Below are positions 29,681 to 63,612 of a stretch of 64,000 bases of DNA, one piece after another (within the stretch, counting starts at the first letter, position 1; every line of letters starts with the position of its first letter). The position numbers were made by a program, and so were the translations under genes. The notes under the pieces were generated by a model. The model was not told the origin of the DNA. It worked only from the letters and a program-made list of their open reading frames with translations, and searched no databases. The stretch is taken from assembly GCA_009746045.1 (NCBI GenBank), contig RPFO01000163.1:64001-128000 (forward strand), written 5' to 3'. The stretch comes from Mesostigma viride (Eukaryota; Streptophyta; Mesostigmatophyceae; Mesostigmatales; Mesostigmataceae).

Positions 29681-29689
29681 TGAATTAAT

Positions 29690-31790
29690 TAGGAACATAA
29701 CTCCGTTGAGAGTATTTGTAGCACATAGCCCTTGAGATTTAGGCATGATTTAGGCATGATTTAGGCATGATGCAGACGAGCCACGAGCCACGAGCCACGA
29801 GCCACGAGCCACGAGCCACGAGGTAGCCATGGCTGACGGCGGAGCTCATAACTTTCACGTTTGAGCACCGAATTTTAGCCGTGAATATCACAATCGATGC
29901 GTCTTTCTACGTGACGCACATGCTGATATAATTTTCCGAAGCTATTACGCAATATACGATGAGCAAACGCCTCTCGACGCAACGCAGCCTGGCGGCTGCG
30001 CTCGGCAATGAAAATCCGCCTGCAGCTTCGGCTGCAGCTTCGCCCACCGGCCCAGACGGCAACGGTGACACTAGTCGTGCACTGGTGCTCGCCCAGCCCC
30101 CCGGGCTTGCCTCGCCATCTGCATCGCCTGAACCTAAGCGCAGTCGCTCTGCTGAGCCGCACTGGGACGCGATCGCCTTTGACATCAACGAACCAGGCTA
30201 CTGGACTCGCCGCCCATCCGCCTTCATGGAAGATGTGTTTTTCGGCACGCACGCCTCGCTTGTAGCCCTGTGCGCGCACCTCACGTCCCACAACCGCGGC
30301 CGCTGGCCTGGTGATGGCCAGCTTGCCGACCCCGATCACGCTCTCCCAATCGTTCACCGCATGAATCGCCCCAAGCTCCAACGCTACGCCCTCAGCTCCC
30401 TCCTTGGACGCTCCGAAGCCGTGATCTGGGCTTCCCCACCGCCCCCCCCCACCTTTCCCACCGAAGCCACCATCCGCACCCTCCTTAAGGAAGCTTTCGA
30501 GCAGCACGTGACCCCCCTTGCCACAGATGTGGCGGCATTGGGAGGCACGCTGGCTGCTGAGCTCCCTCACATTTCCACCACCATCACCTCCACCTCCACC
30601 CTCCTCGCCTCCACCTCCACCGCCTCCACCGACTCCATCACCGCCCAGCTCCGCGACATCGACCAGCGTCTTAAGGATAATGCCATCGCTATCGAGGTCC
30701 TGCAGAACACCGCAGGCCTCACCGCCCAGACGTTGAAGGACATTAATTGCCGCCAAGCCAGCCCCTGCTGGCCTGGCCGGCGATGCTCCTCCGGCCCATC
30801 ACGACCTGGGCGGACAACATACCACCTCCACCACCTCCGCCGTCGCAGCCCAGCTCCAGCGGCAGACGCTTGACCTCCACGAGGAGGCCGAGCTCGCCAA
30901 GGGCAGCCTCAAGGCCATCCTCAAGAACTTCGACATGGTGGAAGGTGAGAATTCCGAAAAGCTTGCACGTGCGTTTGAGAGCAAAATCCTTGCACGCATG
31001 GGCCTCCTTGGTGAGATTAAGCTGACCGCCCACCGCCTCCCCCGCGCGCGGGGTAAGGCAGGGGCGCCTCCGCTTCTTCTCATCTTTGAGACCGGCCCCG
31101 CGGACAAGATTTCGTTTCTCAGACGCCGCAAGCGGCTCGAGAACACTCCCTTCACCGTGGACGACGACTTGACCGGTTGACCCTGGCGCAGCAACAACGG
31201 TGACGGGAGCTATGGCCGACCTACCTCCACCTCCGGCAGACCAAGGCGGCGGGCCAGCTGGTGTACTGGAAGGGGGCGGGCATCTACGTCGGCCACAAGC
31301 CCTGGCACGCGACCCCCTCGACCACCGCGGCCCCAGCGACTCCAGAAGCCCCGGCCTAGCTAGGAGAATACAGCAGCAGTAGTGTAGAATAGTTAGACAG
31401 TGGCCTTGTACATGCCCGCCTACTACAGGCACTATACCAGCTGAGGCCTAGCCTTTTTAGTCATGTACATGTGTGCCTATGATGAGCCACCCTCCAGATG
31501 ATGCCTAGCTCTATGCCGTGCCCATGCAGGGAGTAACTTTCTGCTGAGACGCCGTGCCCTATAGCTTCTGTATATAGCTATGCTGATCTTCCCCCCCATG
31601 ACAGGCTCCCACTTAGCTGGGCATAGCTTGAAGATCATGGGGCTGCAAGAGCCCTGGTGCACCTAGAGCAAGGGTCGTTTACATTCTCACCCTTGCATGC
31701 AGGAAGTAGCGTAGAATATATGATAGGCCATATGCCCCTTCTCTGGGCTATGTGCTACATATACTCCCAACGGAGTTGTGTTCCTAATCG
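29690..31790 (+). mobile_element. Half-LINE family B with 5' leader
   Basis: The leader has about six copies of a 10-bp 'cgagccacga' repeat (29776-29822), then 'ggctgacggcggagctcata', which matches the leaders of family A (46262) and LINE R (53680). ORF1 opens at 29959 and runs to about 30745: a Pro/Ser-rich N-terminus, a VFFGTHASLVALC segment and a Thr/Ser-rich helical region. It continues after a frame break at 30935-31180 (RRM-like part, TPFTVDDDLT) and ends with VYWKGAGIYVGHKPW near 31359. A 3' UTR follows directly, with the hairpin ACTCC-CAAC-GGAGT at 31763-31776. The TTAA tail is missing at the right edge. There is no ORF2. Confidence 0.8.
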
Positions 31791-32749
31791 GTGTTGTCTG
31801 AACGTAGTTTCTTTATAATAGATGAGAATGAACGCCGCTATGTGAGTGGTACTACGGGACGGTGGGCCTTGGGCTGGACCGGTTCCATGACTCAGTTAGA
31901 ATTAGTTGGCCAGTTTTGTATGGCCATTTCTAGTTCGTTAAGTTAAGTAGCAATTAAGTTACTGTTGCTGACGGCTCATGAGGCGAGCCCGGGCTACGCC
32001 GCCCTAAAGTGCCATTTGCACGATGTTCTAGGTCTCTTTTTCTTGTAATCGGATGTATGGGGTATGGGTATGGCGGATTACAAGAAATTTAATGCTGCCC
32101 TAATCGCGTCAGCCTTTTTGGCTGCCGGTGGCCGATTAGAGATGGCGCGTGACTGACATAGCATGAACAGTCACGTGACTGTGAAAAAGAAATTAACATT
32201 ACCCTCGTTGGTTTTCTCCCCGCAGCTGGGTTCTTGGCCGACGAGAGACTATAAAATACTTCGCGTTTGCCTGCGCGTGGCACCTGTACGGAACTCTGAA
32301 ACCATGAGTAAGTTTTCCGTGCCACGCTGCAGTGCCTACCGCTTTGCTGCGGAATGTCGCAGCAGGAGGGGTGGCATGCCCGGGGAAGATTTCCTGGAAC
32401 CGCGGTACCAGAGAGGGTTGTCCCAGGGGCTGACGGTGGTGGATTTTTGCGGGGCCCATGGTTAACCGCGGGGTTTGAGGGTCAAAAACTTGCCGGTGGC
32501 GGTTCGTGGGCCCTGGGTGATCAGAACCGTGGTTTACTACGTGCCAGTAGAAAACTGCCACGTGTAATATGTTAGACTAGGGCTGTACGTCACGCCGGGT
32601 TGGCTCAGGACCGTGGTAGCCTATGGACCAGTAGAAGTATGCCACGTGGATAATGTTGTAGGTACTGTACCTGTGCCTGCATGCCACGTGGCTTTTACTG
32701 GCCGCCACGTGCGAAGTCACTTGAACCATCAGGCGCATGCCACGTCATC

Positions 32750-33445: not shown

Positions 33446-33828
33446 GTTTGTTTTGAGGGCTGTTGCCACGTGGCAGAATAATGGAGTACGGAGAGAGAAG
33501 AATAGTAGTATAATGTTCAGTTTAGTGGGTAGTAGGGATAGTTACCGCAAATAGGAGTCCGAGGGGGTAACCATGGTACCGGCTCTCGGGCTTGCCGGCG
33601 GCGGCCGGCGGGTACCATGGTCCTGGACGCTACCGTGGTACCAGCAGCGTTGGGTGCCGGTTGCGGTCCACGCGTCATGGTTGGACCGCGGGCCCGGCCT
33701 TTTTTGTCCGGCGGTGGTGGTTTTTGTGACCGCGGACCCTTGGCTGGATGCCACCCCTCCTGTCGCAGCAGGGTTGCAGTTCCTGACTGCTGTCAGACTG
33801 CCGAAGGAAGGGTGGTCGGGTTACTTTA

Positions 33829-35685: not shown

Positions 35686-37378
35686 AATTAATTAATAGCC
35701 CTTGAGAAGGGGCATATGGCCTATAATACATTCTAAGCTACTTCGAATGTAAACGACACTTGCTCTAGGTGCACCATGCAGGGCACCTGCATCCCCATGA
35801 TCTATCAAGCTATGCCCAGCTAAGGGGGAGCCTGTCATGGGGGGGAAGATCATCATAGCTATACAGAAGCTAGAGCGTGGCATCTCAGCAGAGAGCAGCT
35901 CTCTGCATGGGCACAGCATAACTAAATAAAGCTAGGCATCATCTGGAGTGTGGCACATCATAGGCACACATGTACAGGGCTAAATGATGCTCGTGAATCA
36001 GCTGGTATAGTGCCTGACAGTAGGAGGCGTACATGTACATGGCCACGGTCTATCTATTCTACACTACTACTGCTGTATTCCCCTAAGCTGGGGCGTCTGG
36101 AGTCGCTGGGGCCGCGGGGGTCGCATGCCAGGGCTTGTGGCCGACGTAGATGGCCGCCCCCTTCCAGTACACCGGCTGCCCCGCCTTGGTCTGCCGGAGC
36201 TGGAGGTAGGTCGGCCATAGCTCCCGTCGCCGTTGTTGCTGCGCCAGGGTCAAGGCATCGTCAAGGGTGAAGTGAGTCTTCTCGAGCCGCTTGCGGCGTC
36301 TGAGAAAAGAAATCTAGTCCGCCGGGTTCTTAAAGGTGAGAAGGAGCGGGGGCGCCCCTGCCTTACCCCGCGCGCGGGGAAGGCGGTGGGCGACCATGCA
36401 GCTCGATCTCACCATTAAGGCCCATGCGACCAAGGATTTCTCTCTCAAACGCACGCGTAAGCTTCTCGGAATTCTCACCTTCCTCCATGTCGAAGTTCTT
36501 GACGATGATGTTGAGGCTGCGCTTGGCGAGCTCGGCCTCCCCGCGGAGGTCGAGCGTCTGCTGCTGGAGCTGTGCTGCAACGGCGGAGGTGGTGGAGGTG
36601 GTGTGCTGCTTAAGCATGTCCGCCCAGGTCGTGATGGGAGGAGCATCGCCAGCCAGGCCAGCAGGGGCTGGCTTGGCGGCAATGTCCTTCACCGCCTGGG
36701 CGGTGAGGCCTGCGGTGTTCTGCAGGACCTCGCCGGATGGCGATGGCATTGTCCTGATTAAGGTGCTGGTCGATGATGCGGAGCTGGGCGGTGATGGAGT
36801 CGGTGGAGCTAGGCGGATCGGGGGGGGGGGGGGGAGGCGAGGAGGGGGGCGGGGGCGGTGGGGATGGTGGGGAGCTCAGCAGCCAACGTGCGACCCACAG
36901 CTGCCACATCTGCAGTTAGGGGCGTCACGTGCTGTGAGATGGCTTCGTGGAGGTGGATCGAGGAGGAAGGTGGATTCAGTCAAGGGGGAGGGGGCCCAGA
37001 GGTCCGCGGCAGAGCGCTGAAGGATGGAAAAGAGGGCGGCGAGCTGAAGGGGCGGGCGGGACCAGTTGGTCAGGTGGTCAGGTCGGTTGAGAAACCCGGC
37101 CGTCAGGTCTGGACATTGCGGAAGCGATTAAGGCTCTGAAGGCGCCGCCACAGGTCCAGAAGAGAGGCGTACGACCCGTAAAACACGAGCTCCAGTATCT
37201 TGAGGGGTGGCATGTCGAAATAGCTGGGTCTGGCGTCGGCGGAGGTGGAAAATAACCTGTCAACGTCAAAGTCGTACTCAGACCAGCTGGTTTCGGTTGG
37301 GCGGCTGCGTTTGGGTTCAGGCGAGGCTGAAGGCGAGGCATGAAGCCCGGGAGGGTGCGGGGCGACCACCAGTGCGCA
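35686..37378 (-). mobile_element. Half-LINE family B, inverted
   Basis: The minus strand carries a family B element. The N-terminal ORF1 part (about 37369 to 37100, SPSASPEPKRSRPTETSW) is followed by the frame at 36749-36363 (NTAGLTAQAVKDIAAKPAPA, ITTWADMLKQH, a coiled stretch), then the RRM-like part and VYWKGAAIYVGHKPW near 36130. The 3' UTR follows to a short AATT tail at 35686-35698. The ORF1-to-UTR junction is the same as in 29690-31790. Several frame breaks are present. The 5' end is cut at a family D fragment at about 37378. Confidence 0.8.
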
Positions 37379-37620
37379 ACTGGGAGATCATGTAGCACAT
37401 ATTCCCTTGCTGGATGGATGGGGGTGGGCGAAGCCGCGAAACCGAACTTATCTAACTCTAAGCTATAACCTAATCTAGAAAACCCTAACTATTCTACTCA
37501 GCAAAGCGCCCCTTCCTCTTGGGGGGGGGGGGGGCTTGCCCACAGGGGCAAAGCATGACTAAATAATTTATAATGCTATGCATCATCTGCATGGTGTGGA
37601 GCCCATCATAGGCAGACATG
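37379..37620 (-). mobile_element. LINE family D fragment plus a short family B 3' UTR fragment
   Basis: 37379-37545 is the complement of the family D 3' UTR ('gggagatcatgtagcacata'...'gcttgcccacagg'), with the last ORF2 codons. 37546-37620 resembles a family B UTR ('aaagcatgactaaata', 'catcatctgcatggtgtgg'). Confidence 0.6.
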
Positions 37621-37734
37621 TACATTAATTAATTAATTAATTAAACTCGTGCTCCCGTTGGGGAGTCACGGAGCACCGAAGTGCTTTTAATCCCTGTGTG
37701 TGCACTACAGGAGAAAGGGCACACTAGGAACTCA

Positions 37735-38075: not shown

Positions 38076-38227
38076 TGAGCTTTATTTCATTAAGTCCTTA
38101 ACGTGAAAAAAAAACTCAACACCACTTTGATATGCATTGTAGGGTGCACAAAGGTGCAATATAGGGTTGTCATACAATATAAAACAGCACATCATTCCAT
38201 AAACAATGCTGTCATGCCCAAATTAAA

Positions 38228-41880: not shown

Positions 41881-42721
41881 GTTCCTAGTGCAGAGACCCC
41901 CAGTCTCCTTCATGCCAAAGGCATGCCACAGCCGCAATCGGGCGCGTTAGCTAAACGGACACGCTAACGATCCGGCAAACTGTGGGTGCAATAAGACCCA
42001 TGTAGGCGTAGCATAACAAGTATAGCGTGGGCAAGTAATCTGAACATAGCCAGGGCGTAGCATGGCTGTACGAGAACTAGGCTAAGGCTATGGCTGGTTG
42101 TGTACCGTGCGTTGGCGGCACGTGACTAGGTGTGTTGGCACAGCTAGGCAAACATTCTAGGCATGGCTGCCTTAGCGACAGTGACTCCAATGGTTACAAG
42201 CTAGGGCTATTGCTATTCTAGCCCGCTGGGGGCGTCCACATCTTGTGGTTGATCATCAGGTCCCCGCCCCTCCAGTACACCTTGGGCTTCTGGGGGTCCT
42301 GCTTATGGCGGAGGTATTCCGGCCACAGGTCGCGTCGCTGCTGTTGCTGAGCGGGGGTGAGGTCGTCATCCAACGTCCAGGTGAGGTCGTGCAACCGCTT
42401 GCGACGAGAGAGGAACCGCTGCTTATCCTCAGGGGAGAGGAAGGTGAGCAGGACTGGTGGGGTGGCCGCCTTGTCCCGTGAGTGGGGAAGGCGGTGGCAC
42501 CCACGCAGTTCTACCTCACCTACCAGGCCCATGAGGGTAAGAAGCTGGTTCTTGATCTCGTCAGCAAGGGAGGTTGACGTCTCACCTGGCTTCTGGGGGA
42601 AGCGACGTAGCACCACTCGGCACTCGCGGCGAGCGCGATCGGTGACCTCCCGTTGCTGGGCCTGGCGGTGGTCCTCCAGCTCCTGGAGCTTCGTGGCGAT
42701 GGCGTCGGTGGTGGAGGCGGT

Positions 42722-43119
42722 AGATGACATGTACATGGCCGGCTAAATAATGCTTATTCATCATCTGCATGGTGTGGCCGGCCCATCATCACAGGCATAC
42801 ATGTACATGGCCGCGATGGCTAAGCCTTACTATTCTAACTACTACTGCTATATAGTCCCCTAGGCTCAGTGGGGTGGCTGAGGGTGCTGGGGGAGCGGGG
42901 GTCGCTTGCCAGGGCTTGTGGCCGACGTAAATTAATTCATGAAACTGCATCACGGCCGCGGCCCCAACACCTCCAGATACCCCATGCAGCTTAGGGGAAT
43001 ACAGCAGTAGAAGTGTAGAATATAGTAAGGCCTAGCCACCGTGGCCTTGTATACATGTACGCCTATTATGGGCCACCTACCAGCTGATGACTTAGCATGT
43101 TATTTAATTAACCATGCAT
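42722..43119. mobile_element. Mosaic of family B 3' fragments in both orientations
   Basis: 42722-42935 reads on the minus strand as a family B 3' UTR plus the last ORF1 codons ('ccagggcttgtggccgacgt'). 42936-43119 reads on the plus strand as another B/C UTR ('ggggaatacagcagta', 'gtggccttgta'). The two meet near a short 'attaatt'. Confidence 0.55.
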
Positions 43120-44702
43120 ATTTATTAACTCGTGCTCCCGTTGTGCATGCATGGGGAGTCACAGAGCACCGAAGTGCTGGCCCTGTGTGCATGTGCACAA
43201 CAGGTATAGAAAGGGCAGAGACCCCCTTTCTCCTTCATGCCAAAGGCATGCCACAGCTGCAATCGGACTCGCCGATCGGTAACCGATCCGGCAAGATCTG
43301 TGGGTGCAATAAGACCCATGTGAGCATATCATAACAAGGAGCGTGGGCAAGTAATTAATCTGAGCATAGCCAGGACGTAGCATGGCTGTACAAGGACGAA
43401 GCTAAGGCTATGGCTGGTTGTGTATATACCGCGTGTGTTAGCTCGGTGCACGTGACTGGGTATGGTGGCACAGCTAGGCAAACATACTAAGCATGGCTGC
43501 CATGGCGTCATCAGTGACTATACCAATGGATACAAGCTAGGGCTATTATTAGCTATTCTAGCCCACATGCAGGGCCGGGCGTCCACATCTTGTGGTTGAT
43601 CATCAGGTCCCCACCCCTCCAGTACACCTTGGGCTTCTGGGGGTCCTGCTTGTGGCGGAGGTATTCAGGCCACAGGTCGCGTCGCTGCTGCATGCTGCTG
43701 AGCGGGGGTCAGGTCGTCGTCCAGCGTCCAGGTGAGGTCGTACAGCCTCTTGCGACGAGAAAGGAACCCGCTGCTTGTCCTCACGGGAGGGGAAGGTGAG
43801 CAGGACTGGTGGGGGAGCCGCCTTGTCCCGTGAGTGGGGAAGGCGGTGGCACCCACGCAGTTCTACCTCACCTACCAGGCCCATGAGGGTAAGGAGCTGG
43901 TCTTTGAGCTGGTCGGCAAGAGTGATTGACGTCAGTCAGTCTCACATGGATTCTAGGGGAAATGACGCAGCATCACCCGGCAGTCGCGGCGGGCGTGGTC
44001 GGTGGCCTCCCGTTGTTGTGGCGGCCTGGCGAAGGTCTTCAAGCTCCTGGAGTTTGGTAGCGATGGCGTCGGTGGTGGAGGCGGTCGCTGTCCGCAGCAG
44101 GTCCGCATAGGAGAGGGGCGGGAGGTCGCCAGCATCCTGCCGGGGTGGCTGGGCCGGGTGCGATGGTGGCCGTCTGCTCCGCTATCTTTGGGACCTCGGT
44201 GAGGCCAGGGCCTCGGTCAGTGGGGGGTGATGGCTTCAAGCTTCTTCATGAGCACGCCGCACTTGCCCTCGATCCACCTGGTTTAGGCGAGAGACAAGTG
44301 CAGCGTGCGTCTCAGATGCCTGCGCCGCGGTGTGCAGCGCCGTGAACTGGGGTAACTTGTTGCTTGTGGACGACCTTGGTTTCCACATTGGAGACCCGGG
44401 CCTCCACCGTGTTGAGCGTCGTGTGTAGCGAGGTCAGCTTCTCGGCCAACGGCCAGGTCACGTGCTCCTCCAGCACTGCTTGGAGATCATCCTTGCAGAG
44501 GGAGGGAGCCGACGTGGCTGCCGGCTGCGCAAGCCGGGCTGGGTTTTAATGCGGAGCTTAGCGACGATGTCGTGAACAGGTAGCTGGAAGAAGCTGCACA
44601 GGATAGCGAGGCGGTTGTCTGGCCTGGCGATGAACGCCTCCACGTGGGGGGCGGGAATGGCCCCGTTGGGCCCCGGCCATGAGCTTGCGTTCCTGGGCTA
44701 AC
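43120..44702 (-). mobile_element. Half-LINE family C, second inverted copy
   Basis: This shows the same layout as 37624-42721 without the CACTA insertion. The 3' tail region is at 43090-43135, with a terminal hairpin disturbed by an insertion. The UTR includes 'aagggcagagacccc', the uninterrupted CACTA target. ORF1 on the minus strand runs from about 44690 to 43590 with several frame breaks. N-terminal blocks include IARPDNRLAILCSFFQLPV, and the RRM-like and DDDLTPAQQ parts are recognisable. Confidence 0.75.
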
Positions 44703-46249: not shown

Positions 46250-48126
46250 ATTCTCCACCCCAGCCACGAGCCACGAGCCAGTGACGAGGTAGCCATGGCT
46301 GTCGGAGCTCATAACTTTCACGTTTGAGCCCCGAATTCAGCTGTGAATATCACAATCGCTTCGTCTTTCTTAGACGCACATGCTGATATAATTTTCCGAA
46401 GCTATAAGAACGCACTGTATGATGAGCAAACGCCCCTTGCCGCAACGCAGCCTGGTGGCTGCGCTCGCCAATGAAAGTCCGTCTGCAGCTTCGGCAGCAG
46501 ATTCGCCCTCAAGCCCGGAAGGCAACGGTGACACTAGTCGTGCACTGGTGGTTGCCCAGCCCCCTCACGGACTTGCCTCGCCCTCTGCATCGCCTGAGCC
46601 TAAACGCAGCCGCCCTGAGGATCCGCCCCCTGACGAGCCGGGCTGGAAAGAAATCGACTTTGACGCCAAATCAGCTGCCCATGGTGGACACAAGGCCAAG
46701 CAGCTCCCATCCAGTTTATGAACGCCGTGTTCTTCGGGTCGCGCACCTCGCTTCTTGCCCTGTGCAAGCACTTTTACGTCCAAGGTCGCATCATTTCGCC
46801 TACCCGCGGTGATTATCACCCGGATCTGTCCCGCTACTCCCGCCCCCGCCTTCAGCTCCTCGCCCTCTGCTGCCTCCTCGGGCGCTCTGTCGCCGAGATC
46901 TGGGCCCCCCCCTCCACCTCCGAAATTCGCTCCATCATCAACAAGGCCATCGAACAGCACGTGACACCCCTGGCTGCAGATGTGGCGGCCATGCAGGGCG
47001 GCACGCTGGCTGCCGAGCTTCCCCTCCTCTCCTCCACCACCACCGCCACCTCCACGCTCCTCGCCTCCACCTCCACGCCTCACCGCCCAGCTCCTCGCCA
47101 TCGACAAGCGCCTGCAGGACCATGCCATAGCCATTGAATGCTTGCAGAACACCGCCGGCATCACTGCCCAGGCGGTGAAGGACATCGCCGCTCGGCCAGC
47201 GCCTGCTGGCCCCATGCCGGCGCTGCTCCTCCCACTGATCCCGACCTGGGCGGACATGCTTAAGCAGCATGCCACCTCCACCACCTCCGCCGTCGCCGCC
47301 CAGCTTAAGCAGCAGACGCTGGACCTCCGCGAGGAGGCCGAGCTCGCCAAGCGCAGCCTTAACGTCATAGTCAAGCACTTCGACCCGCTGCAGGACGAGA
47401 CCTCCGAGACCCTTGCCCTGGCGTTTGAGAACCAAATCCTTGTCCCCATGGCTATCACTGGTAAGGGCAAGCCGCGGGGGGTGACCCGGCCGCCTTCCCC
47501 GCTCGCGGGGTAAGGCCGGCCCCTTCCCCTTGCTCCTCACCTTTGACACCATGGCGGATAAGATGGAGTTCCTCAAGTGTCGCAAGCGGCTTGGGGGGAC
47601 CGCCTACACGCTGGACGACGACTTGACCTTGACGCAGCAACAACGGCGACGGGAGCTATGGCCGACCTACCTCCAGCTTCGGCAGACGGCGGGGCAGAAG
47701 CCGGTCTACTGGAAGGGGGCGGACATCTACGTCGCCCACAAGCCCTGGCAGGCCACCCCTGCCGCCCCAGCCACCCCAGCCACCCCAGCCTAGGGAATAT
47801 ATAGCAGTAGTGTAGACTAGAAAGCTTAGTGACGTGGCCATGTATGCCTACGTGATGGGCCCACACCCGCCCTTACAATAGCCGTAGCAATTTCGAGTCA
47901 TGCTCTGCCCATGCAGGGAGTTACTCTCTGCTGAGAGGCCATGTGTACCCCAGCTATAGCCTAGCCACATACCTTCCACCCCATATGTCATGCAGGCCCT
48001 CTAGGCCCTCTCCTAAAGCCGCCTTGTGTGCCTGTGCTTGTTTAGGAGGCATGACCCATCATGGCGGTGCAGGTGCACCTTGTGCACCCAGAGCAGGTGA
48101 TAGTTGTACATCCTACACCTGCAGGT
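46250..48126 (+). mobile_element. Half-LINE family A, longest copy
   Basis: The leader with 'cacgagccacgagcca' and 'gtcggagctcataactttca' matches families B and R. ORF1 starts at 46419 or 46422 (MSKRPLPQRSLVAALANES). It is open to about 46700, shifts frame at about 46715, 47085 and 47510, and ends at 47791-47793. Domains in order are a Ser/Pro-rich N-terminus, a VFFGSRTSLLALCKHF segment, a Thr/Ser-rich coiled part, PTWADMLKQHA, an LREEAELAKRSLNVIVKHFD helix, an RRM-like block, AYTLDDDLTLTQQQRRREL, and VYWKGADIYVAHKPWQ. The 3' UTR begins at once and is truncated at 'ctgcaggtt', where a family D copy abuts. No ORF2 is present. Confidence 0.82.
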
Positions 48127-48590
48127 TAAAATTAAATTAAATTAAATTATAACATATGCCTCCGTGGGGAGGTCATGTAGCACATATTTCATGATGGATG
48201 GGGTGGAGGAAGCCGCGTGATCGAACTATCCTAACTCTATCTAGAAAATCCTAACTACACTACTCATCAAAACGCCTCCTCCGCCGTTGGGGGGAGGTGG
48301 CTTGCCCACAGGGTCGGGCGTGTGCGCCTTGACAATCTTCTTCCACCGCGTCTTGTCCTGCAATGATGGCAGTCCAAAGACGGGAGAGAGAGTGGATGCG
48401 GTGCTCAAACTGGGCTGGGACCACTAGGTCGTCCAGCAACATCTGAACGTAGTTGGTGACAGGTTTCCCTACCCTTTTGGGAATGTCCTTGGGGCCAGGC
48501 CAGGTCAGAATGTGCCGCCCTGGCTGTCCAAGCCGCTGGGGGCCGGCCAGACCAAGGGTGGTGTCGACCTGGCTGGTGCGGGCAAGGTGT
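48127..48590 (-). mobile_element. LINE family D 3' fragment, inverted
   Basis: It starts with a TTTAA-type tail (48127-48152) and the CTCC hairpin. On the minus strand the last ~70 codons of ORF2 follow (QFEHRIHSLSRLWTA, then ...RRRRFDE) with a frame break. It is nearly identical to 53190-53575. Confidence 0.75.
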
Positions 48591-48716
48591 CCTACAAATG
48601 CTACCTGCAGGTTGTCGCCCTGATTGTATTACAAACCCATAGATGCCCCTTTCTCTGGGCTATGTGTTACATATCACTCCCCACGGGGCTATGATTTTAA
48701 TTAATTAATTAATTCT
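48591..48716 (+). mobile_element. Family A terminal ~120 bp
   Basis: This has the 'cctgcaggttgtcgccctga' block, the hairpin (variant CTCC-CCAC-GGGG) and a (TTAA)n tail at about 48698-48716. Confidence 0.75.
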
Positions 48717-48935
48717 CCACCCCGTGTCCGCAACTTTGCACAGGCCCTGGAATACATGGTGGTGCAGGTGCACCACCATCTCACCTCAGTTGTGCACCCC
48801 GAGTAGGTGGCAGTCTACACCAATTAACCACCTGCAGGTTGTCGCCTAGAATGTATTGAAAACCATATGCCCCTTCTCAGGGATGTGTGTTACATATCCT
48901 CCCCACGGAGGTATGTTCTTAATAATTATTAATGC
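48717..48935 (+). mobile_element. Family A-related 3' end, diverged
   Basis: This is the same UTR architecture placed directly behind the previous tail. The hairpin is CCTCC-CCAC-GGAGG (about 48898-48911) and the tail is AT-rich and irregular. Confidence 0.65.
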
Positions 48936-53111: not shown

Positions 53112-53579
53112 GCCATGAATTACTCAATTAATTAATTAATTAATGAAGAACATGAATGCATTGGGAGTATACGTGACACATGGCCCTGAGACTACGTGGC
53201 CTGGCCCCAAGGACATTCCCAAAAGGGTAGGGAAACCTGTCACCAACTACGTTCAGATGCTGCTGGACGACCTCGTGGTCCCAGCCCAGTTTGAGCACCG
53301 CATCCACTCTCTCTCCCGTCTTTGGACTGCCATGCAGGACAAGACGCGGTGGAAGAAGATTGTCAAGGCACACACGCCCGACCCTGTGGGCAAGCCACCT
53401 CCCCCCAAGCGGAGGAGGCGTTTTGATGAGTAGTGCAGTTAGGATTTTCTAGATAGAGTTAGGATAGTTCGATCACGCGGCTTCCTCCACCCCATCCATC
53501 ATGAAATATGTGCTACATGACCTCCCCACGGAGGCATGTTATAATTTAATTTAATTTAATTTAATTTAATTTAATTTTT
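53112..53579 (+). mobile_element. LINE family D, C-terminal coding end and 3' UTR
   Basis: After a (TTAA)n remnant at 53125-53142 and a short inverted 3' end, an open frame to 53433 encodes the final part of a LINE ORF2. It has GPKDIPKRVGKP, QMLLDDLVVPAQFEHRIHSL, then W-x2-M-x2-K-x-RW and TPDPVGKP before RRRRFDE. The W..M..K.RW...TP.PVG.P spacing matches the C-terminus of LINE R. The 3' UTR ends with hairpin CCTCC-CCAC-GGAGG (53521-53534) and a (TTTAA)n tail at 53541-53579. Confidence 0.7.
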
Positions 53580-53699
53580 AATGGCCCTGAGAAGGGGCCT
53601 ATTGCCATATACTACGTAAGATGTAGGCGTGCTCACATCTCATGCGCACAAAATGGCCGCTGACGGCGGTATGGCGGCTGACGGCGGAGTTCAGATCTT

Positions 53700-54578
53700 T
53701 TGCGTCTGAGCCCCAAATTCGGTCAGACCACTTGCATTCGATGCGCCTTTCTAAGACAGCAGCAGCAGCAGCAGCAGCTCCTCCACCAGCTCCAGCAACA
53801 ACTTGCCGCCTCCATAACTCCTGCCAAGACCACCTATGCCGCCACGCTTCAGAACCCTACGGAGCTCATCAACGAAATCAAAACAGCCGTCAAGGCCAGC
53901 ACAAGGGATGCTATGCACGAACCCATTCGCTCATGCAGTATTGTGGTACGTGGCGTCCCCTCGAACGTCAACGATGCACGCCTGGGCACCTACCTCCGGG
54001 GCGACCCCTTCCTGGGGAAGCTCGGCGTGGCCCAAAGCGTCGTCATCAAAACGGCACGACGGCTCGGCGGCCCCACCGCCCCTGTCTTGGTGGAATTCCA
54101 CCGCAAGGAGGACAAACTGCAGGTGCAGAAGGCCCGCCGGAACCTCCACGATACCCAACTGAGCATCGACGATTACTATACCCCGGAGCAGCTTGAGGCC
54201 CGGGCTGCCGCTTTGAACCGGCCGGAGGTCCACGAGGCTCGGGCAGCCAAGCAGGCCAACCCGCAACTACGGTGCAGCATCTATGCCCGCCTCTTTAATG
54301 GCGTCTTCATCGTCCGCATTAACGGCCAGGACCTTCCTCCAATGACGGCGACCCCCATGGATACCGCCGTGCCAGCGCCCCAGCCCCCTGCTCGGCCCCC
54401 GCCGTCACCGCCATCGCCACCGGCATCGACGGTCACCTGCTCCCCAGCACGGGTGGGGATCCGCCGGGGCAACTTCAGCTCAGGTATGGCTGCCAGGCTT
54501 GGCCGTCCCCCTAATAAATTCGTTCGCTTTGCACCTGAGCCGGAGCCCGCGCTGCGAACCCTTCTCTCCTATCAATGA
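53700..54578 (+). CDS. LINE R ORF1 (RNA-binding ORF1p-like)
   Basis: The frame is open for up to 292 codons. The true start is uncertain: the frame has no ATG before a Gln-rich stretch (~residues 18-45, CAG repeat), and the first in-frame ATG is near 53739. After a TTYAATLQNPTELI segment comes an RRM-like region (SCSIVVRGVP...) ending in NLHDTQLSIDDYYTPEQLEA, the counterpart of the DDDLTPxQQ block in families A-C. The protein then has VFIVRINGQDLPP and a Pro-rich tail. The stop (TGA 54576-54578) overlaps an ATG at 54575 (ATGA), so ORF2 translation could restart there. The expected role is binding LINE RNA in a ribonucleoprotein. Homology to L1 ORF1p is by layout, not a strong sequence match. 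Confidence 0.7.
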   Translation: MRLSPKFGQTTCIRCAFLRQQQQQQQLLHQLQQQLAASITPAKTTYAATLQNPTELINEIKTAVKASTRDAMHEPIRSCSIVVRGVPSNVNDARLGTYLRGDPFLGKLGVAQSVVIKTARRLGGPTAPVLVEFHRKEDKLQVQKARRNLHDTQLSIDDYYTPEQLEARAAALNRPEVHEARAAKQANPQLRCSIYARLFNGVFIVRINGQDLPPMTATPMDTAVPAPQPPARPPPSPPSPPASTVTCSPARVGIRRGNFSSGMAARLGRPPNKFVRFAPEPEPALRTLLSYQ

Positions 54579-54973
54579 CGACGCTCGCGGCCCCGCGGCT
54601 CCGCGGCTTTAGCAGTGGGATCTGCCTAACTCCCCTTCCCGCCCCTTTGCCTTCGCAGCCCTCGGGCTGTCGGAGAGAGAGCACCGGGTCGGCAGTGAGC
54701 CAGGTTCGCCCCGCCTCGCGCGGCCGCCTCCGAAACCTTCAGACTGCACGCATTTCTTCTGCGTGCAGGCGCAGACTCATTCTACCTGGCCACCCGAGCC
54801 AACCGTCGGCGTCGCCTCGACGCGTTGGCAGGAAGAATCGAAACGGTGATTGAAAGCATAAGTCCCCAACCCGCCCCCCCTACCCCACCACCTCCACCCC
54901 CACCCCATCACCACCCTGCTCCATCTCCGCCCCCACCCCCGCCTGCACCCCCCTTTTCGGTCAACGCGCGCCC

Positions 54974-56011
54974 TTGGTCATCGCCACCTTCAACGCCCGC
55001 ACGCTCCAGCCCGACGCTGACCGCTGTCACTGCCTGCGCAGTGACGACTGTCAGTGCCATCGAGTCTCCAATCTTATTGGTTTCTGCATCGACAATAATA
55101 TCGCCATCCTGGGAATCCAAGAACACAGGCGCACTGCATCGGCCCGCGGATCAACTGCCCATGTTGCTGACGACATCGACGGCTGGCGGTTCTACTACGG
55201 AGGCGGCGACGGCACCGGGAACGGGGGCGTCGGTCTCCTCTGCTCCCCGCTCGCCGTACGCCACATGGGCGAACCCCAGCTGGTCAACGCTCGGCTCCTC
55301 GTGGCCACTTTTCATTCGATGGAGGGCCACTCAACCTACGCCCTGACGGTGGGCGTTGGTTACGCACCCCACTCCGGCCACCCAGAACAAGACCGCAAGG
55401 ACTTCTTTGCAGCGCTGGAGAACCTGGCGAACGGCATCCCTGGTCGCAACTACCTCGCTCTGCTGCTGGACGCCAACGCCACGCTACCACCGGGTAGTGG
55501 CGGATGTCAGCACGCCCCCAACGGTACAGTCTCCAATGCCAACACTGAACTTTTTGCTGATTTGCTTACGACATGCGATTTGGTCACTGCCAACACTCGC
55601 TTTCCACATAGTCCAGATGCTTTGGTCACACACACCTCGCCAACTGGCACTGAACGCTGCATTGACTATGTTGTAATGCGCAAGCGTCATCAAGGATCTG
55701 TACTAGCTGCTCGCTCGCATGTGATCCCCCTGGTGCGCTCCGATCATCGCATCGTCACCGCCCGCATCCGCCTGCGATTCCCCTCGCCCTTTCGTAAGCA
55801 CGTGGCACCCCCTGATTTGCGCACACTCCAGTTGCTCGAGAAATCTGACGACGCTCTGGAGGACTTCCCTGAAAAACGCGCCCACAAGCGCGCCGCAGAG
55901 GCGTTTGTCGACGCGCTGGACATCCCGGCCAGCCACGCCCAGCTGTTCGCTGCCGGCCTGGCATCGGCCCTTCGGCACCTCGCTGACAAGCTGCCCGCGG
56001 CCGGGGCCCTA
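54974..56011 (+). CDS. LINE R ORF2, N-terminal APE-type endonuclease
   Basis: This is the endonuclease that nicks the target DNA. In order: VIATFNARTL (first Asn), a Cys/His-containing loop, IAILGIQEHRR (catalytic Glu), YGGGDGTGNGGVGLL, LALLLDANATLP (Asp-x-Asn), TERCIDYVVM and LVRSDHRIV (final Asp-His). All residues expected for an exonuclease-endonuclease-phosphatase fold are present. The frame upstream of 54974 is Pro-rich and continues open for some distance, so the translation start may be earlier, possibly near the ATGA at 54575 with a frame change. The coding run is interrupted at the TA dinucleotide 56010-56011 by the DNA transposon. The remainder of ORF2 is at 59438-61634. Confidence 0.85.
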
Positions 56012-56899
56012 CAGGGGTCACCCGCAGTATCGCAACAAGAATCGCAACTCAAAAAAAAAAAATTTATCATCCACTTCGATTAAGGGCAGGTATGGGCACA
56101 CCATGGCACCTTCACTTTTCAAAAGTGATGTTTGGATGAAAAATGGGAGCGTGCTCGAGTATCGCAACACCTAGTTCCGCAACTGAAAACCCACCAATTC
56201 TAGAGTTCCGCAATGCAACAGAATCGCAACAAACCTGGCAAGTATACCAAAAGTACGCCGTACACGTGCGCCGGAAGGAATGAATTGTCGCCAATCGGCG
56301 TGCAGGATCCGATATGTACTTGCAATAGTTACCGCCGTTGACGATTGATTGGCCGCGCGGTGTTCAGTTCAGTTCAGTGGGATTCATCGCGCGGAAGTCA
56401 GTGCAATAATGAACAAAAACATAAGTGTGCCGCCTCTTCATTGAATAATCAACGACCTATAATTAGTCTACAACCACTAACCTTTCGTTATCAAACAGTT
56501 CCCTAATCATCACGCGCGTCATCGTCTCGTCATTGCGCGTCATTACCCCGTCATTGTCCCGCCGACATTACACAGCTATGGTCTTGAGGTATAGTCGGCG
56601 CCGTGGCATGTTAAACAAACTGCGTTGTTTCATTCACAGTGTGGTTTCATTATGTCGCTCTTTCGAACGGGGATGCATTAGGCAACAATACTGGACAGAT
56701 TCTGAAAGAGGGTGTGTTTGTGAAGTGGGGATGGCAGCGGCCCAGCATTTGCTGGCCGTGCGGGTGCAACTTTGAGGCGACTACATATATCGCCCTGAAC
56801 CGTCTTTGTTAAAGCGGTGAGACAGTCCAGTGTTACAGTCCGGCCGCAGGCCGGGCAAGGGAAATGCTGTGTTCACCCTGATGCTGCGGGCCGAGGATG

Positions 56900-57690
56900 G
56901 GTGGCTGCATGGAAACGTGAATGCTTGCATCGAATGGATGGCGGTGTCTGCATGCATGGATTGCACGTGAATGTTCGCAGGATGGGTGGTAATTGCATGG
57001 ATGCTCGCAGGATGGGTGCTAATTACACGAATCGATATTGCATTAATGCTTGCAGGGATGGATGGTGTTTGCATGCGTGGATACGTGAATGCTTGCAGGG
57101 ATGGATGGTGTTTGCATGCATGGATACGTGAATGCTTGCAGGGATGGGTGGTGTTTGCATGCATGGATACGTAAATGCTTGCAGGGATGGATGGTGTTTG
57201 CATGCATGAATGTGTGAATGCTTGCATGGGTGGATGGTGTTTGCATGCATGGATGGGTGGTGTTTGCATGCATGGATACCTGAAAGCTTGGGGTGGATGG
57301 TGTTTGCATGCATGGATACGTGAATGCTTGCATGGGTGGATGGTGTTTGCATGCATGGATGCGTGAATGCTTGCACGGATGGGTGGTGTTTGCATGCATG
57401 GATACGTGAATGCTTGCCTGGGTGGATGGTGTTTGCATGCATGGATACGTGAATGCTTGCACGGATGGGTGGTGTTTGCATGCATGGATACGTGAATGCT
57501 AGCATGGATGGATGGTGTTTGCATGCATGAATGTGTGAATGCTTGGGGTGGATGGTGTTTGCATGCATGGATACGTGAATGCTTGCGTGGATGGATGGTG
57601 TTTGCATGCATGGATGCGTGAATGCTTGCAGGGATGGAAGTGATTGCATGCATGGATACGCGAATGCATGCATGAATGCGACCGAGGACA
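56900..57690. repeat. 43-bp minisatellite, ~15-17 units
   Basis: The core unit contains 'gcatgcatggatacgtgaat' and 'gcttgcagggatgg' followed by 'atggtgttt'. Units vary in length by a few bases, and some are deleted. It sits inside the TA-flanked transposon. The open frames across it are products of the repeat. Confidence 0.92.
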
Positions 57691-57769
57691 GTGTAAGCAC
57701 CTTTTAGGGATTAATATAGTGGTGAATATGGGCAGGCCCCCTGACCCATGTGAGTTATACATGTATTCA

Positions 57770-57990
57770 AGGAGACAACGATTCCAGTCCATGGCAGGAT
57801 ATATAAAGGATACCAACCCCAAGTCGGTGGGGGTATGCATGTGACCCAATTCAGTACAAGTGTAATAACAGTGATTCGGGCCGTGGTGTCAGCAACCCTG
57901 TCACTCAAGGTTACATTATAGATACTCATTCCATCTCCGCCTCCACATCATTGAGGATGTAATATACGCGACAACTATTAATGTTCGCAT
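57770..57990 (+). mobile_element. Decayed LINE R 3' end inside the TA transposon
   Basis: Blocks 'ggataccaaccccaagtcgg', 'gtgattcgggccgtggtgtc', 'aaccctgtcac' and 'ctccacatcattgaggat' align in order with the R 3' end. The hairpin is lost. Confidence 0.5.
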
Positions 57991-58139
57991 GGCGGTCACG
58001 CGACGCCTGATCAACGCGTAGCGTCTGCGTGTCGTAATTTAATTTTTTAATATTAATGCACAGTCACCATTTTACCGCGTGCTGGCCTGCACTTAGCCCT
58101 TGGATGACCAGTGTGTAACTCTACCCCTAATTATGGCTG

Positions 58140-58930
58140 GTTGCACCTTGCATGATAATGTCCAGAAACCAGCCTGATAACAATCTAGTGTCCATACTGG
58201 GACCAAAGCACACGCATATAGGGAGTTACTTCGGGGTCATGTCATTAGTCATGTTGCAATGTCCTATATGTCCTATGGGTGCTAAATACAGCACTAATCT
58301 CAGGGGGTGCACGGGTGCGATAAAAAAGACACTTACAATGCAATGTTAAGTGATAATGCAATATTGGACGTCTTCACAAACCAAGGCCCAAATGCACACG
58401 TAGCAAGGGGGTGCAAGGGGCGGTGTTACCCATGCATCCAGAACATGAGAAATGACCTCCATTTGCATGCCTAGGATGAAAATATACAAACACTGCATCG
58501 AACTTCTTTTCTACGTCAGCAAGGCACTGGGGCCTCCATAGATGTTGCACGGACTGCACAACTGCACAGGCGTCCTTTACTAGCAAAGCCAAAAGGCTGA
58601 CAAAAAACTGGCCATGATACCATCTTTCCTGAAGAATTTAGGCAATAGAAACCATCGTGCTACCATCTACAACTCCTTTAGATGTTAAATCAATCGTCAT
58701 TCTAGAAAATTAGGTACAGACGCAGCTAATCATGAACAAAACTGATGAAAATCTTACGACGACGGTTGTACAAAACCACAACCACAAACTAGTACACAGG
58801 AGTAGTAAGTTAGCGAACTTAACACCACAAACCTTCAACAACGTGTCCGAGATTACTTACCGAATGATATAACGACTTTACCTTGTTGACGGTATCCGCA
58901 GGTACACTAAACTGCGCCATGCCGAAACCG
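58140..58930. mobile_element. Segment related to the TTAA element at 49113-50829
   Basis: Shared blocks include 'ttcggggtcatgtcattagt' (58229) against 'tttggggtcatgtcattggt' (49243), 'gctaaatacagca' against 'gctataaatagca', and a similar gap structure up to about 58700. It is an old fragment carried within the TA-flanked transposon. Confidence 0.45.
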
Positions 58931-59437
58931 CAAAAAGAAGGCTAGCGGAAAGCTAGCAATCTCATGACAGAAAGGCAATCTCATCACGGCGTCGAGACTT
59001 TCCTGGCCCTGAACGATGATGAAATACGCGAAATACATCATACGAAAACTACTGGTTGCGAAAATTTCAATGATACAGAAGCTAATAACAAGTGCTGCCT
59101 TTCATCGTCACCCCCGTGATGATTAACGCGTGTAGACGCAGTAAAAAGTAAAAACCAGCCCGAGATAATGTGCGCATCATTAGATGTTGCGCGACTGCGG
59201 CTATAGCATTTTTCTGACGCCGCTCATTTCAGTTCGGTTGATTCTTCGCGCCGGTCAGCCAAGGAGTGACATACTTCACGTCGGGGTGTATCTTTAGTTG
59301 CGATACCACGCGTTTGCCGTTTCGCAACTTTTCGTCCAAATCGGTCCTCGCAAGAATCGCAACAAAAGTGTTTTTTGGTCCTCCTGGAAAGTTGCGTAGT
59401 TGCGATTCTTGTTGCGATACTGCGGGTGACCCCTGTA

Positions 59438-61634
59438 CTGCCCCCCCGCCGCCCGCCCCGCTTCACCAGCCTGCACCGGCTCCCCGCCGTCATCCAGGCC
59501 CGGCAAGCCCTGCGCGACAACAGCGACCCCGCCCGCTACGCCCGCCTCAAAGCCGATTACCACTCGGCCATCCGGCAGGCGACCAAGGAGCAGGAGGACC
59601 TTCATGTCCGCGAGTACTTCGCCCACCTCAAGGACCAGCACGGCAAGTACGCCTGGACCCGCCTGCGTCACGCCCAACGGCCCGCCGGCGGCGCGCAGCC
59701 GGCGCCGCGGACGCTCTCTGGCTCACCGCAGCAGCAGCTCGACCAGTGGTATTCCTCCCAGTCCCGGCTGCTCGGCGCCCCCCCGCCGCCTCCGCCGCTT
59801 GGCCCTCTGGCGGCCGCACGCCTGGCAGTAGCACCGGCGGACGTCCCTGCGCCGCCCACGCCGCCCGCCGCTGAGCAGGACTACACGTACCCAGCCCTGA
59901 CGGAACCCCTGGCCGACCCCAACGAGCTCCCGCCGTTCACCGAGCTCGAGCTGAGCACCGCCGCCAAGCAACTCCGCTTTTATGCCGCCGTTGGACCTGA
60001 CCAGCTCCCAGCCCCGGTGATTAAGCTGACGGCGCTCACGGGATTCCTGCTTGACGTCTGCAACCGGATCCTGCTTGCCGACGCGCCGCCGATTCCTGAG
60101 TGGCAGCACAGCTACCGTATTATGCTGTACAAAAACAAAGGTTCCCCTGACGACCCCGCCAACTACAGAGGAGTCTGCATCCAGAGCGCCGCACTTAAGT
60201 TGTTCATGCGCATGATCCTCAACCGCCTTCGTTCTGCTCTCGACTGTCACCTTGGGGAGAGTCAAATGGGCTTCCGTCCTGGGCGCAACACCGTCATGGC
60301 CATCTTCGTCGCGCGTCGCCTCTTCGAGGAAATCGCTCTCCTGCAACCTGGTGAGTTTCCCGCCATCCTGATCTTCGTCGACTTCATCAAGGCTTTTGAT
60401 TCTGTCCTCTGGGACGCTCTATGGGCTGTACTTGCTCGCGCTCGCGTCCCCACTCCCCTGATTACCGTCATCCGCACGCTGTACATATGAGGGGTCGACC
60501 ACTTCGGTGCGCACTCAACACGGCATTACCCCGCCATGCCCACTGCAGACCGGCGTCTGGCAGGGTTGCGTCCTGTCGCCGTACCTGTTTATTATTGTAG
60601 TGGATTATGTCATGCGCCAGGCACGTGCTCGCTTTGCTAGCATTGCAGGCCGTGCCCCTGGCCTAGCGATCACGAACGAGCTTGGGGAAGGGGGGCCGAC
60701 TAACAAGCAGAACTTACTAGCTGACCTCATTTATGCCGACGACATCACGCTCATCGAGAAGCCGGAGTCTGCCCAACTTTGGCTGGACTGCCTGGCGCTC
60801 GAGGCTCGGGCGGTTGGTCTAGAAATCAGCCCCAAAACGGAGGCCCTGGCCCTCGGCATGGCAGGGCCCCCACCCACACTCCGCCTCTTAGACGATGCCG
60901 AGGTCAACTACCCTCCTTCAGGCCGCTTCAAGCTGCTCGGCAGTTGGCTTCCCGACTGCGAGGACGACATGACGACACGGATCGGCATGGCGTGGGCGCA
61001 CCTCCATGACCACCGCCGCTGGTGGAGCAACCCCGCCCTACCCCGGATCGTCAAGCGTGACCTCTTCAAGGTCGTCATTCTGACGATCCTGACCTACGGC
61101 GCCGAGACGTGGACACTGATGCAGGAGCTGGAGCAACGACTCGACGGCGCCGTCACCAAGATGCTGCGCAAGGCCCTTAACATCCCCTTTGGTTTGCACA
61201 TTAGTAATGAGGATTTGTACGCTGATTTGCCCTATGTTTCCCACATTATTAGGCACAGGCGCCTGGGCCTAGCCGGGCACCTGGCCCGCACAGATCAGGT
61301 AGATACATCAGATAGACTAGCTGGCACCAAGCCCGCCCAGCCTGGGCGATATGTCCTCACCTGGCGTGCCCCCGGCCGCGCGCGGCAGGGCCGCCACCCG
61401 TGGACTTTTCGTGATAGACTCGGCATGGACATGTGCTACGCTAGACGTGACGGGCTCACCCCCGGGCAGCCTCCTGGTTTGTCTGTAATATGGAGGCAGA
61501 TGGTGCGCAAGGATAGATGGCAAGTAGTGATGAAGGAGACCACCCCCAAGCCTGTGGGGGCTCCGCGTGTGACCAAGTATGGCATTCATAGCGATTCGGG
61601 CCGCGGTGCCCACACCCCTGTAACTAGGACCTAG
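59438..61634 (+). CDS. LINE R ORF2, reverse transcriptase and C-terminal part (one frameshift)
   Basis: This performs target-primed reverse transcription. Motifs in order: LYKNKGSPDDPANYRGVCI, ESQMGFRPGRNT, ILIFVDFIKAFDSV (motif A Asp), GVWQGCVLSPYLF (motif B), LIYADDITLI (motif C, catalytic YADD), LEISPKTEALAL and a following GRFKLLGSWL. The C-terminus has RRLGLAGHLARTD and ends ...KPVGAPRVTKYGIHSDSGRG. The frame is broken once, at about 60485-60490 ('tacatatgag'), between motifs A and B. Otherwise it is open to the stop at 61632-61634. All catalytic Asp residues are present, so decay is recent. It continues the endonuclease frame across the TA transposon. Confidence 0.88.
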
Positions 61635-61733
61635 ATGATAGCATATACCATCCATTCCATCCCATGTTCCCCTCCCACTGAGGACTTATGCTCACGTGAC
61701 GCAGTCACGTGTCTATTAATTAATTAATTAATT

Positions 61734-63612
61734 CTAAGACGCACTTGCCAGTATAAACGGTTACGGCTGCCACGCAGTATAGACAAAGTCACGCACGTGA
61801 CCAGCTATGACGACTACCAAAGCAAAACGAGGGCTGGAAAAGGAGCTGGCACAGCTTCCCAGCGCCCAGCCCAACCCTCTCGCCCTCGCCATTGTTCAGC
61901 CGCCAGGCTTACCCGCCAAACCCTCGCCAAGCGCCTCGCCTGAGCCCAAGAAACCATGCCACGATCGCCACAAATGGAGCCAATACTTGCCCGGCGACGG
62001 AATGTTCTCCCTCCTCGAGTGGCAGAATTAAGCTGTCACCGCAGGAAGTCGTCGAAGTTCTCCAGTTCCTCACACAGGAGCGGAAGCTCTTTGTGGCCTG
62101 GAGAGGGGGGACGGCTATCGACTACCGCGACACGTCCTGGCTCTACACCTGTGACGAATCCCGCCAACGCACGGTTATCTTGACCAGCTACTACCAGCGC
62201 AGCTTCGGCGACATCCACAGAGCACTTCGGAACGCACTCAACGCCCCAGCCCCCGCACAGCCGGCAGCCCCATCGGCTTCCTCCCTCGGCAAGGATGACA
62301 TCCGCGCAGTGCTGGAGGAGCACGTGACCTGGCCGCTGGCCGAGAAGATGACCTCGCTGAACACCACGCTCAACACGGTCGAGGCCCGGGTCTCCAACGT
62401 GGAAACCAAGGTCGTCCACAAGCTACAACCACAGTTCACGGCGCTACACACCGCGGCGCAGGCTTCGGAAACGCATGCTGCACTTGTCTCTCGCCTTAAC
62501 CAGGTGGAAGGCAAGTGCGGCGTGCTCATGAAGAAGCTTGAGGCCATCACCGCCCACACCGAGGCCCTGGCCGGCGCCACACAGGTCCCAAAGCTAGCGG
62601 AGCAGACGGCCACCATTGCCTCCCAGCCACCCCGGCAGGATGCTGGTGACCTCCCGCTCTCCTACGCGGACCTGCTGCGGTCAGCGACCGCCTCCACCAC
62701 CGACGCCATCGCCACGAAGCTCCAGGAGCTGGAGGACCACCGCCAGGCCCAGCAACGGGAGGTCACCGATCGCGCTCGCCGCGAGTGCCGAGTGGTGCTA
62801 CGTCGCTTCCCCCAGAAGCCAGGTGAGACGTCAACCTCCCTTGCTGACGAGATCAAGAACCAGCTTCTTACCCTCATGGGCCTGGTAGGTGAGGTAGAAC
62901 TGCGTGGGTGCCACCGCCTTCCCCACTCACGGGACAAGGCGGCCACCCCACCAGTCCTGCTCACCTTCCTCTCCCCTGAGGATAAGCAGCGGTTCCTCTC
63001 TCGTCGCAAGCGGTTGCACGACCTCACCTGGACGCTGGATGACGACCTCACCCCCGCTCAGCAACAGCAGCGACGCGACCTGTGGCCTGAATACCTCCGC
63101 CATAAGCAGGACCCCCAGAAGCCCAAGGTGTAATGGAGGGGCGGGGACCTGATGATCAACCACAAGATGTGGACGCCCCCAGCGGGCTAGAATAGCAATA
63201 GCCCTAGCTTGTAACCATTGGAGTCACTGTCGCTAAGGCAGCCATGCCTAGAATGTTTGCCTAGCTGTGCCAACACACCTAGTCACGTGCCGCCAACGCA
63301 CGGTACACAACCAGCCATAGCCTTAGCCTAGTTCTCGTACAGCCATGCTACGCCCTGGCTATGTTCAGATTACTTGCCCACGCTCCTTGCTATGATATGC
63401 TCACATGGGTCTTATTGCACCCACAGTTTGCCGGATCGTTAGCCTGTCCTTTTAGCTAGCCGCGCCCGATTGCAGCTGTGGCATGCCTTTGGCATGAAGG
63501 AGACTGGGGGTCTCTGCCCTTTCTCCTGTAGTGCACTCACAGGGATTAAAAGCACTTCGGTGCTCCGTGGCTCCCCAACGGGAGCACGAGTTTAATTAAT
63601 TAATTAATTAAT
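61734..63612 (+). mobile_element. Half-LINE family C, near full length
   Basis: It starts directly behind the tail of LINE R. A ~73-bp leader precedes ATG 61807 (MTTTKAKRGLEKELAQLPSA). ORF1 has a frame break at about 62028 and a premature TAA at 63130-63132. The protein has a Pro/Ser-rich N-terminus, QYLPGDGMFSLLEW, FLTQERKLF, a long heptad-like coiled coil (about 62330-62600: LNTVEARVSNVETKV...), LSYADLLRS, an RRM-like part and LTWTLDDDLTPAQQQQRRDL. The 3' UTR starts at 63191. It ends with hairpins AGCAC-TTCG-GTGCT (63551-63564) and GCTCCC-CAAC-GGGAGC (63570-63585) and a (TTAA)n tail. No ORF2. Confidence 0.82.

Follow-up and report, generated by a model that had tools for sequence, protein, structure and literature searches.

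Probable HAL1-like, ORF1-only LINEs and their candidate helpers in the streptophyte alga Mesostigma viride

We analysed a window of 64,000 nucleotides (nt) from Mesostigma viride (contig RPFO01000163.1, here C491, positions 64001-128000) and found long interspersed nuclear elements (LINEs) in which the first open reading frame (ORF1) passes directly into the 3' untranslated region (3'UTR). These elements, called A/B and C, are probably HAL1-like non-autonomous LINEs that carry ORF1 only and are mobilised in trans through a 3' hairpin shared with LINEs encoding reverse transcriptase (RT). A sequence-only reading of the window had proposed that what spreads is the ORF1-only form. This is supported because there are complete copies with target-site duplications and at least 40 copies of the C junction (39 of them at 99% identity), and because amino-acid changes in ORF1 are depleted within lineages. 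The host genome comprises 439.9 Mb in 2,243 contigs; the published M. viride assembly is given as 441.8 Mb with 66% repeats in the text cited (PMC6947507). About 300 kb of sequence was examined in all, namely contig C491 entire (237 kb), 37 kb of C679, 16.5 kb of C224 and smaller stretches.

The element measures about 1.9-2.0 kb and is composed of a 5'UTR, ORF1 and a 3'UTR of 400-450 nt, closed by a terminal hairpin with a tail of (TTAA)n. The following copies and fragments were found in the window:

A1, 4360..5626, plus strand: 5'-truncated ORF1 with the frame open to the stop at 5192, 3'UTR, hairpin at 5584-5606, tail
A2, 46262..48711, plus strand: complete ORF1-only element with 5'UTR, frameshifted ORF1, stop at 47793, 3'UTR, 3' end and TTAA tail
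A3, 1857..2438, plus strand: 3' half of ORF1, stop at 2378, start of the 3'UTR
A4, 3897..4345, minus strand: 3' half of ORF1, stop near 3940, 3'UTR; the inverted partner of A3
B1, 29776..31785 (5' end approximate), plus strand: 5'UTR, frameshifted ORF1, stop at about 31360, 3'UTR, hairpin at 31758-31780
B2, 35695..37381, minus strand: ORF1, stop near 36085, 3'UTR
C1, 61733..63611, plus strand: 5'UTR remnant, ORF1 interrupted by one in-frame stop and ending at 63190, 3'UTR, hairpin at 63566-63588, TTAA tail
C2, 41887..42728, minus strand: 5'-truncated ORF1 with open frame, stop at 42218, 3'UTR ending before the hairpin
C3, 43120..44530, minus strand: frameshifted ORF1, stop near 43555, 3'UTR
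A/B-type fragment, 42793..42932, minus strand: ORF1 end, stop and 3'UTR start, adjoining C2
C-type 3' end, 37621..37721, minus strand: last 30 nt ahead of the tail identical to those of LINE-Cp, an RT-encoding LINE described below

Parts of RT-bearing LINEs lie among these copies:

R-LINE, 5'-truncated, inside A2, 48128..48602, minus strand: 11-bp duplication AACCTGCAGGT; same sequence as C491:43367-44434, where the C-terminal part of an RT and its tail lie
R-LINE 3' end, 53194..53577, plus strand: hairpin at 53516-53538, last 27 nt A/B-like, 12-bp duplication ATGGCCCTGAGA
LINEw, 53633..61732, plus strand: ORF1 at 53700-54578, endonuclease (EN) at 54974-56080, RT at 59375-61634

None of the 12 junctions examined was followed by EN or RT sequence belonging to the element. 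Eight of them had been named before, and all eight lie no more than a few tens of bases from the positions first given (A at 2378, 5192 and 47793; B at about 31360 and about 36085, minus; C at 63190, 42218, minus, and about 43555, minus). The span 29690-63612 assigned to the families omits the A copies at 1857-5861. The four extra junctions comprise two in the window (A-type at about 3940, minus; the A/B-type fragment near 42870, minus) together with C491:20579-21885 and C679:7176-9170. ORF1 fragments that do not reach the junction (C491:24633-25099, C679:6470-7134 and C679:20600-21243) and copies consisting of 3'UTR only were excluded from the count. Throughout the 300 kb, no ORF1 of A, B or C was found with an EN or RT of its own behind it. 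The 3' ends of RT-encoding LINEs nested within the A2 3'UTR (the 5'-truncated insertion at about 48128-48602; the A2 ORF1 matches are split) or lying beyond A3 and A4 are separate from those elements. A1 is followed by a second 3'-end copy reaching 5861, B1 is without a TTAA tail of its own, and C1 directly abuts the tail of LINEw, which is a LINE with both ORF1 and ORF2. One copy at C491:215525, starting about 10 nt past the ORF1 stop, was considered as an ORF2-bearing version and rejected: the copy is truncated, a 10-bp duplication flanks it, and the sequence just upstream showed no RT frame.

The C junction was also used as a query against the whole genome, and the best 40 of 2,967 candidates were scored. 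All 40 span the junction (query positions 1-891 in 38 and 1-889 in two) and are spread over 35 contigs, with C1 itself at 100% identity and the other 39 at 99%. ORF2-bearing copies at the junction, which could have overturned the proposal, are absent from the 12 junctions and from these best 40 of the 2,967 candidates.

Three parallel families had been proposed. The families form two lineages, since A and B are alike in 5'UTR and ORF1 (by self-comparison) and in 3'UTR, and so constitute one lineage with C as the second. A 3'UTR sequence is common to A, B and a further copy, X (none of 300 shuffles scored as high). The C 3'UTR shows no clear match to A (16/300 shuffles) or B (70/300) and a weak one to X (1/300). 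The ORF1s of A/B and C are homologous and their 3'UTR bodies not clearly so; the two lineages may or may not have originated independently. The 5'UTR of LINEw is homologous to those of A2 and B1 (0/300 shuffles), while homology with C1, whose 5' end is short, was not detected (25/300); A2 and C1 are weakly similar in 5'UTR (1/300). LINEw ORF1 is a distant homologue (27% identity over 119 amino acids (aa); profile E 1e-5, probability 82%). No parent with the same 3'UTR was found in the sequence examined.

Hallmarks of target-primed reverse transcription, namely duplications and 5' truncation, are present. A2 is flanked by the 12-bp duplication ATTCTCCACCCC at 46250-46261 and 48712-48723, and the complete element at C679:7176-9170 also has a 12-bp duplication. 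Repeats of 10-18 bp were found in nine of 14 flank tests; among 20,000 control flank pairs, a shared 12-mer occurred in 57, an 11-mer in 67 and a 10-mer in 96. At C679:6405-7134 (B type), a short sense 3' end with tail is joined to an inverted ORF1 segment, an arrangement that resembles twin priming. The idea that B1 is a DNA transposon with terminal inverted repeats, suggested by an inverted 3' end at 29686-29735, was rejected because a similar inverted 3' end adjoins C679:6405-7134 and because 12-bp duplications flank two complete copies. Around LINEw 3' ends, which are themselves in both orientations, A3 and A4 make up a large inverted repeat (1857-4345).

The family-C ORF1 protein (ORF1p), modelled from C2 and compared with PDB 2yko and 2ykp, has the coiled coil, RNA recognition motif (RRM) and carboxy-terminal domain (CTD) fold of L1 type. 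In this it is like human L1 ORF1p, and unlike it in sequence, with only 15-19% identity. A Pfam search of the Mesostigma ORF1 gave no L1 ORF1 family match at E up to 1, and a PDB sequence search with the ORF1 profile gave nothing meaningful. The ORF1s of A/B are homologous to that of C, and the complete B-type element at C679:7176-9170 has an open ORF1 of 470 aa; a fragment adjoining it shows 99.7% identity over 670 nt. The protein closest to family-C ORF1, at 96% identity, is an M. viride gene model. These ORF1s account for many of the Mesostigma gene models, in clusters of up to 18 member sequences; the gene set therefore counts transposon ORF1s as genes. A relative with 57% identity is listed for the dinoflagellate Prorocentrum lima, which may reflect contamination or a wider spread of these ORF1s.

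Selection was assessed by comparing nonsynonymous changes with a null that preserves substitution types, expressed as a ratio. Within lineages these changes are fewer than expected: C1 to C3 gave 0.24, A1 to A3, X, B1 and B2 gave 0.50-0.55, and the C679 copy to B1, A2, B2, A1 and X gave 0.46-0.63. The ratio of 0.35 for A1 to A2 rests on 13 changes and that of 0.10 for C1 to C2 on four; the C679 copy and its adjoining fragment differ by two changes, which is uninformative. Some pairs between A/B and C, whose alignments are gapped and distant, are also depleted (C1 to A1 0.72, C1 to B2 0.65, C2 to A1 0.70, C2 to B2 0.55). A neutral ORF1, which could likewise have overturned the proposal, was not observed within lineages, where ratios with enough changes are 0.24-0.63; between A/B and C the result is mixed.

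A link to helpers through a shared 3' hairpin had no place in the sequence-only reading. A, B, X and C, and likewise the R-LINE with its RT, have copies ending in a bulged hairpin of nine pairs, which carries a CMAC-type loop and lies immediately ahead of the tail. A scan for at least seven of nine pairs near a tail gave 18 rows, of which ten, together with the tailless B1, made up the covariation set of 11; the other eight were near-duplicates or, at 28235-28257, not an element end. In the 11 rows, compensated changes occur in five of nine pairs and 94.9% of cells are paired, a percentage that leans high because of the choice of rows; the compensatory changes seen between families rest on more than the hairpin rule. 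Three of five covariation measures lie above all 500 shuffles. The last 27 nt of R-LINE are identical at 23 positions to those of A1, and likewise to those of B1. At L037:761-1024 an R-type tail, (TAATT)n, extends over about 260 bases and is far longer than the other tails seen.

LINE-Cp (C224, with its RT at 539151-540266) is a second RT-LINE. Its final 30 nt are the same as those of the C-type copy at 37621-37721 (30/30), with 27/28 against C1; beyond the last 28-30 nt, the 3'UTR bodies of C and LINE-Cp gave no match. LINE-Cp is abundant, with at least 110 scored matches among 26,156 candidates and open frames up to 1,192 aa (in C136 the open frame begins in the flank). Most LINE-Cp rows have one TAG; in the copies read, this is the codon that ends ORF2, three codons short of the query end. 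A genome search with the RT family PF00078 scored 150 of 7,638 candidates; the many 570-base matches are presumably mostly of long terminal repeat (LTR) type.

Under the HAL1-like reading, element RNA would be translated to ORF1p, which would coat its own RNA in cis, and ORF2p from separate RT-encoding LINEs would recognise the 3' hairpin in trans. Insertion would then take place by target-primed reverse transcription at TTAA-like sites. The elements may have arisen when ORF2 was lost from a LINE with a LINEw-like 5'UTR.

The analogy with HAL1 drawn by the sequence-only reading is apt: the Mesostigma elements encode an L1-type ORF1p, lack ORF2 before the 3'UTR at the junctions examined and are amplified as a unit. 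They differ from HAL1 in being in a streptophyte alga, in having TTAA-repeat tails, where the HAL1 tail is poly(A), and in a 3' hairpin common to RT-LINEs. They work like HAL1 and are not members of the mammalian L1-derived family. HAL1 is described as encoding ORF1p only, without ORF2, and as having several independent origins (cited portion of PMC5753468); in guinea pig, its ORF1 coding capacity was kept for about 29-44 Myr, which the portion cited reads as ORF1p acting in cis and ORF2p in trans (PMC3627910). HeT-A is a Gag-only non-LTR telomere element without pol, whose gag conservation suggests negative selection (as stated in the section cited, PMC5537684). Unlike HeT-A, found at chromosome ends only and in head-to-tail arrays, the Mesostigma elements are dispersed in both orientations, several with target-site duplications. 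They also differ from short interspersed nuclear elements (SINEs), which are non-protein-coding, in encoding ORF1p. In stringent SINE/LINE pairs, known in Chlamydomonas and maize, a common 3' end has a stem-loop thought to be read by the RT (PMC3747384, in the part cited). As in such pairs, the 3'-terminal stem-loop of the half-LINEs is common to an RT-encoding LINE, and its recognition by the RT would follow the stringent type. No published account of a non-autonomous, ORF1-carrying LINE in algae was found in a narrow search of open-licence literature, which leaves novelty in print unproven. The existence of ORF1-only LINEs implies that an element gains from retaining ORF1p in cis, while ORF2p can come from elsewhere. 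An algal case that is dispersed and has a helper sharing its hairpin separates the supplier of ORF1p from that of ORF2p; such natural pairs make cis-preference and 3' recognition testable, and suggest that the HAL1 strategy is not limited to mammals.

Three other explanations were weighed. The ORF1-only and RT-encoding elements might be complementary halves of a split LINE, with ORF1 and ORF2 functions in separate abundant families that recognise each other via one 3' hairpin, neither moving alone, so that half-LINE ORF1p would also serve the RT-LINEs. The exactly alike 3' ends of the C copy and LINE-Cp, both families being multi-copy, fit this idea, and TART is described in a review as needing HeT-A Gag for telomere targeting (PMC5537684, section cited). 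We nevertheless regard it as unlikely, given that LINEw has both ORFs and that LINE-Cp, read short of its 5' end, may carry an ORF1. LINE-Cp was taken for an ORF2-only element when two copies appeared to start at the same base, and this was rejected as a finding and retains only a low probability: among five ORF2 copies, C136 alone, a truncated copy with an 11-bp duplication, starts there, and the other four share sequence further upstream, which covers about 145 nt in C1591 and in three copies extends as far as the stretch read. Upstream of LINE-Cp in C136 there is flank whose only ORF1 is an antisense C-type fragment, and no known ORF1 was found upstream in C1591.

Recurrent splicing or internal deletion, removing ORF2 from full-length LINE RNA again and again at the same junction without a self-propagating ORF1-only lineage, would yield identical junctions too, and a full parent could exist elsewhere in the genome. 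We give this very little probability: no parent with these ORF1s and 3'UTRs occurs in the 300 kb, the 40 scored C copies are near-identical at 40 sites, the junction was kept while A, B and X diverged, and the 3'UTR bodies of C and LINE-Cp are unmatched outside their ends. Least probable is that ORF1 is a decaying passenger of LINE-tailed units spreading as non-coding sequence. Frameshifts or stops in A2, B1, B2, C1 and C3 and some A/B to C ratios near 1 agree with it; the low within-lineage ratios wherever changes suffice, and the intact 470-aa ORF1 of a complete, duplication-flanked copy with its near-identical adjoining fragment, speak against it.

Several observations weigh against the HAL1-like reading itself. 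Two of the five covariation measures are unremarkable (62/500 shuffles reach five compensated pairs, and 394/500 the pair types), and five more ends, outside the scan, fail the hairpin rule (A48714; 27644, 53128 and 2609, all minus; and C3 at 43120, minus). C1 and R-LINE have no significant shared 3' sequence in a shuffle test, and the tail unit is TTTAA in R-LINE against TTAA in A/B, so R-LINE may not be the true helper of A/B. Both LINE-Cp and R-LINE were read short of their 5' ends, and a parent of A/B/C with ORF1 and ORF2 may exist. The ranking of C-junction matches favours contiguous copies that span the junction. Pairs between A/B and C also include null ones (A1 to C1 0.88, A1 to C2 0.91, C2 to X 0.82, C679 copy to C1 0.95), and the pairwise tests reuse copies and hence are not independent. 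As for the flanks, simple sequence surrounds the repeats at C13712 (18 bp) and C145112 (13 bp); in five of the 14 tests no repeat was found (X, C211178, C37721m, A48830 and LINEw alone); and the twin-priming-like copy (9-bp repeat) and the C224 LINE-Cp copy have tail-like repeats only.

LINEw and C1 are jointly flanked by the 12-bp repeat ATGTAGGCGTGC (53621-63622); C1 may have inserted into the TTAA tail of LINEw, or both may have inserted as one composite. An interruption of about 3.3 kb, at about 56083-59374, splits LINEw ORF2 and contains a repeat array at 56906-57678; the end of LINEw, by our reading, forms a different, unbulged hairpin. The structure model of LINEw ORF1 was poor (pLDDT 44.8) and was not used; against PDB, the LINEw RT gave three weak R2 matches only (E 1e-4), and no LINE clade was assigned. 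Elsewhere in the window, 14619-19589 holds a long acidic, repeat-rich open reading frame, the C-terminal part of which may be sialyltransferase-like.

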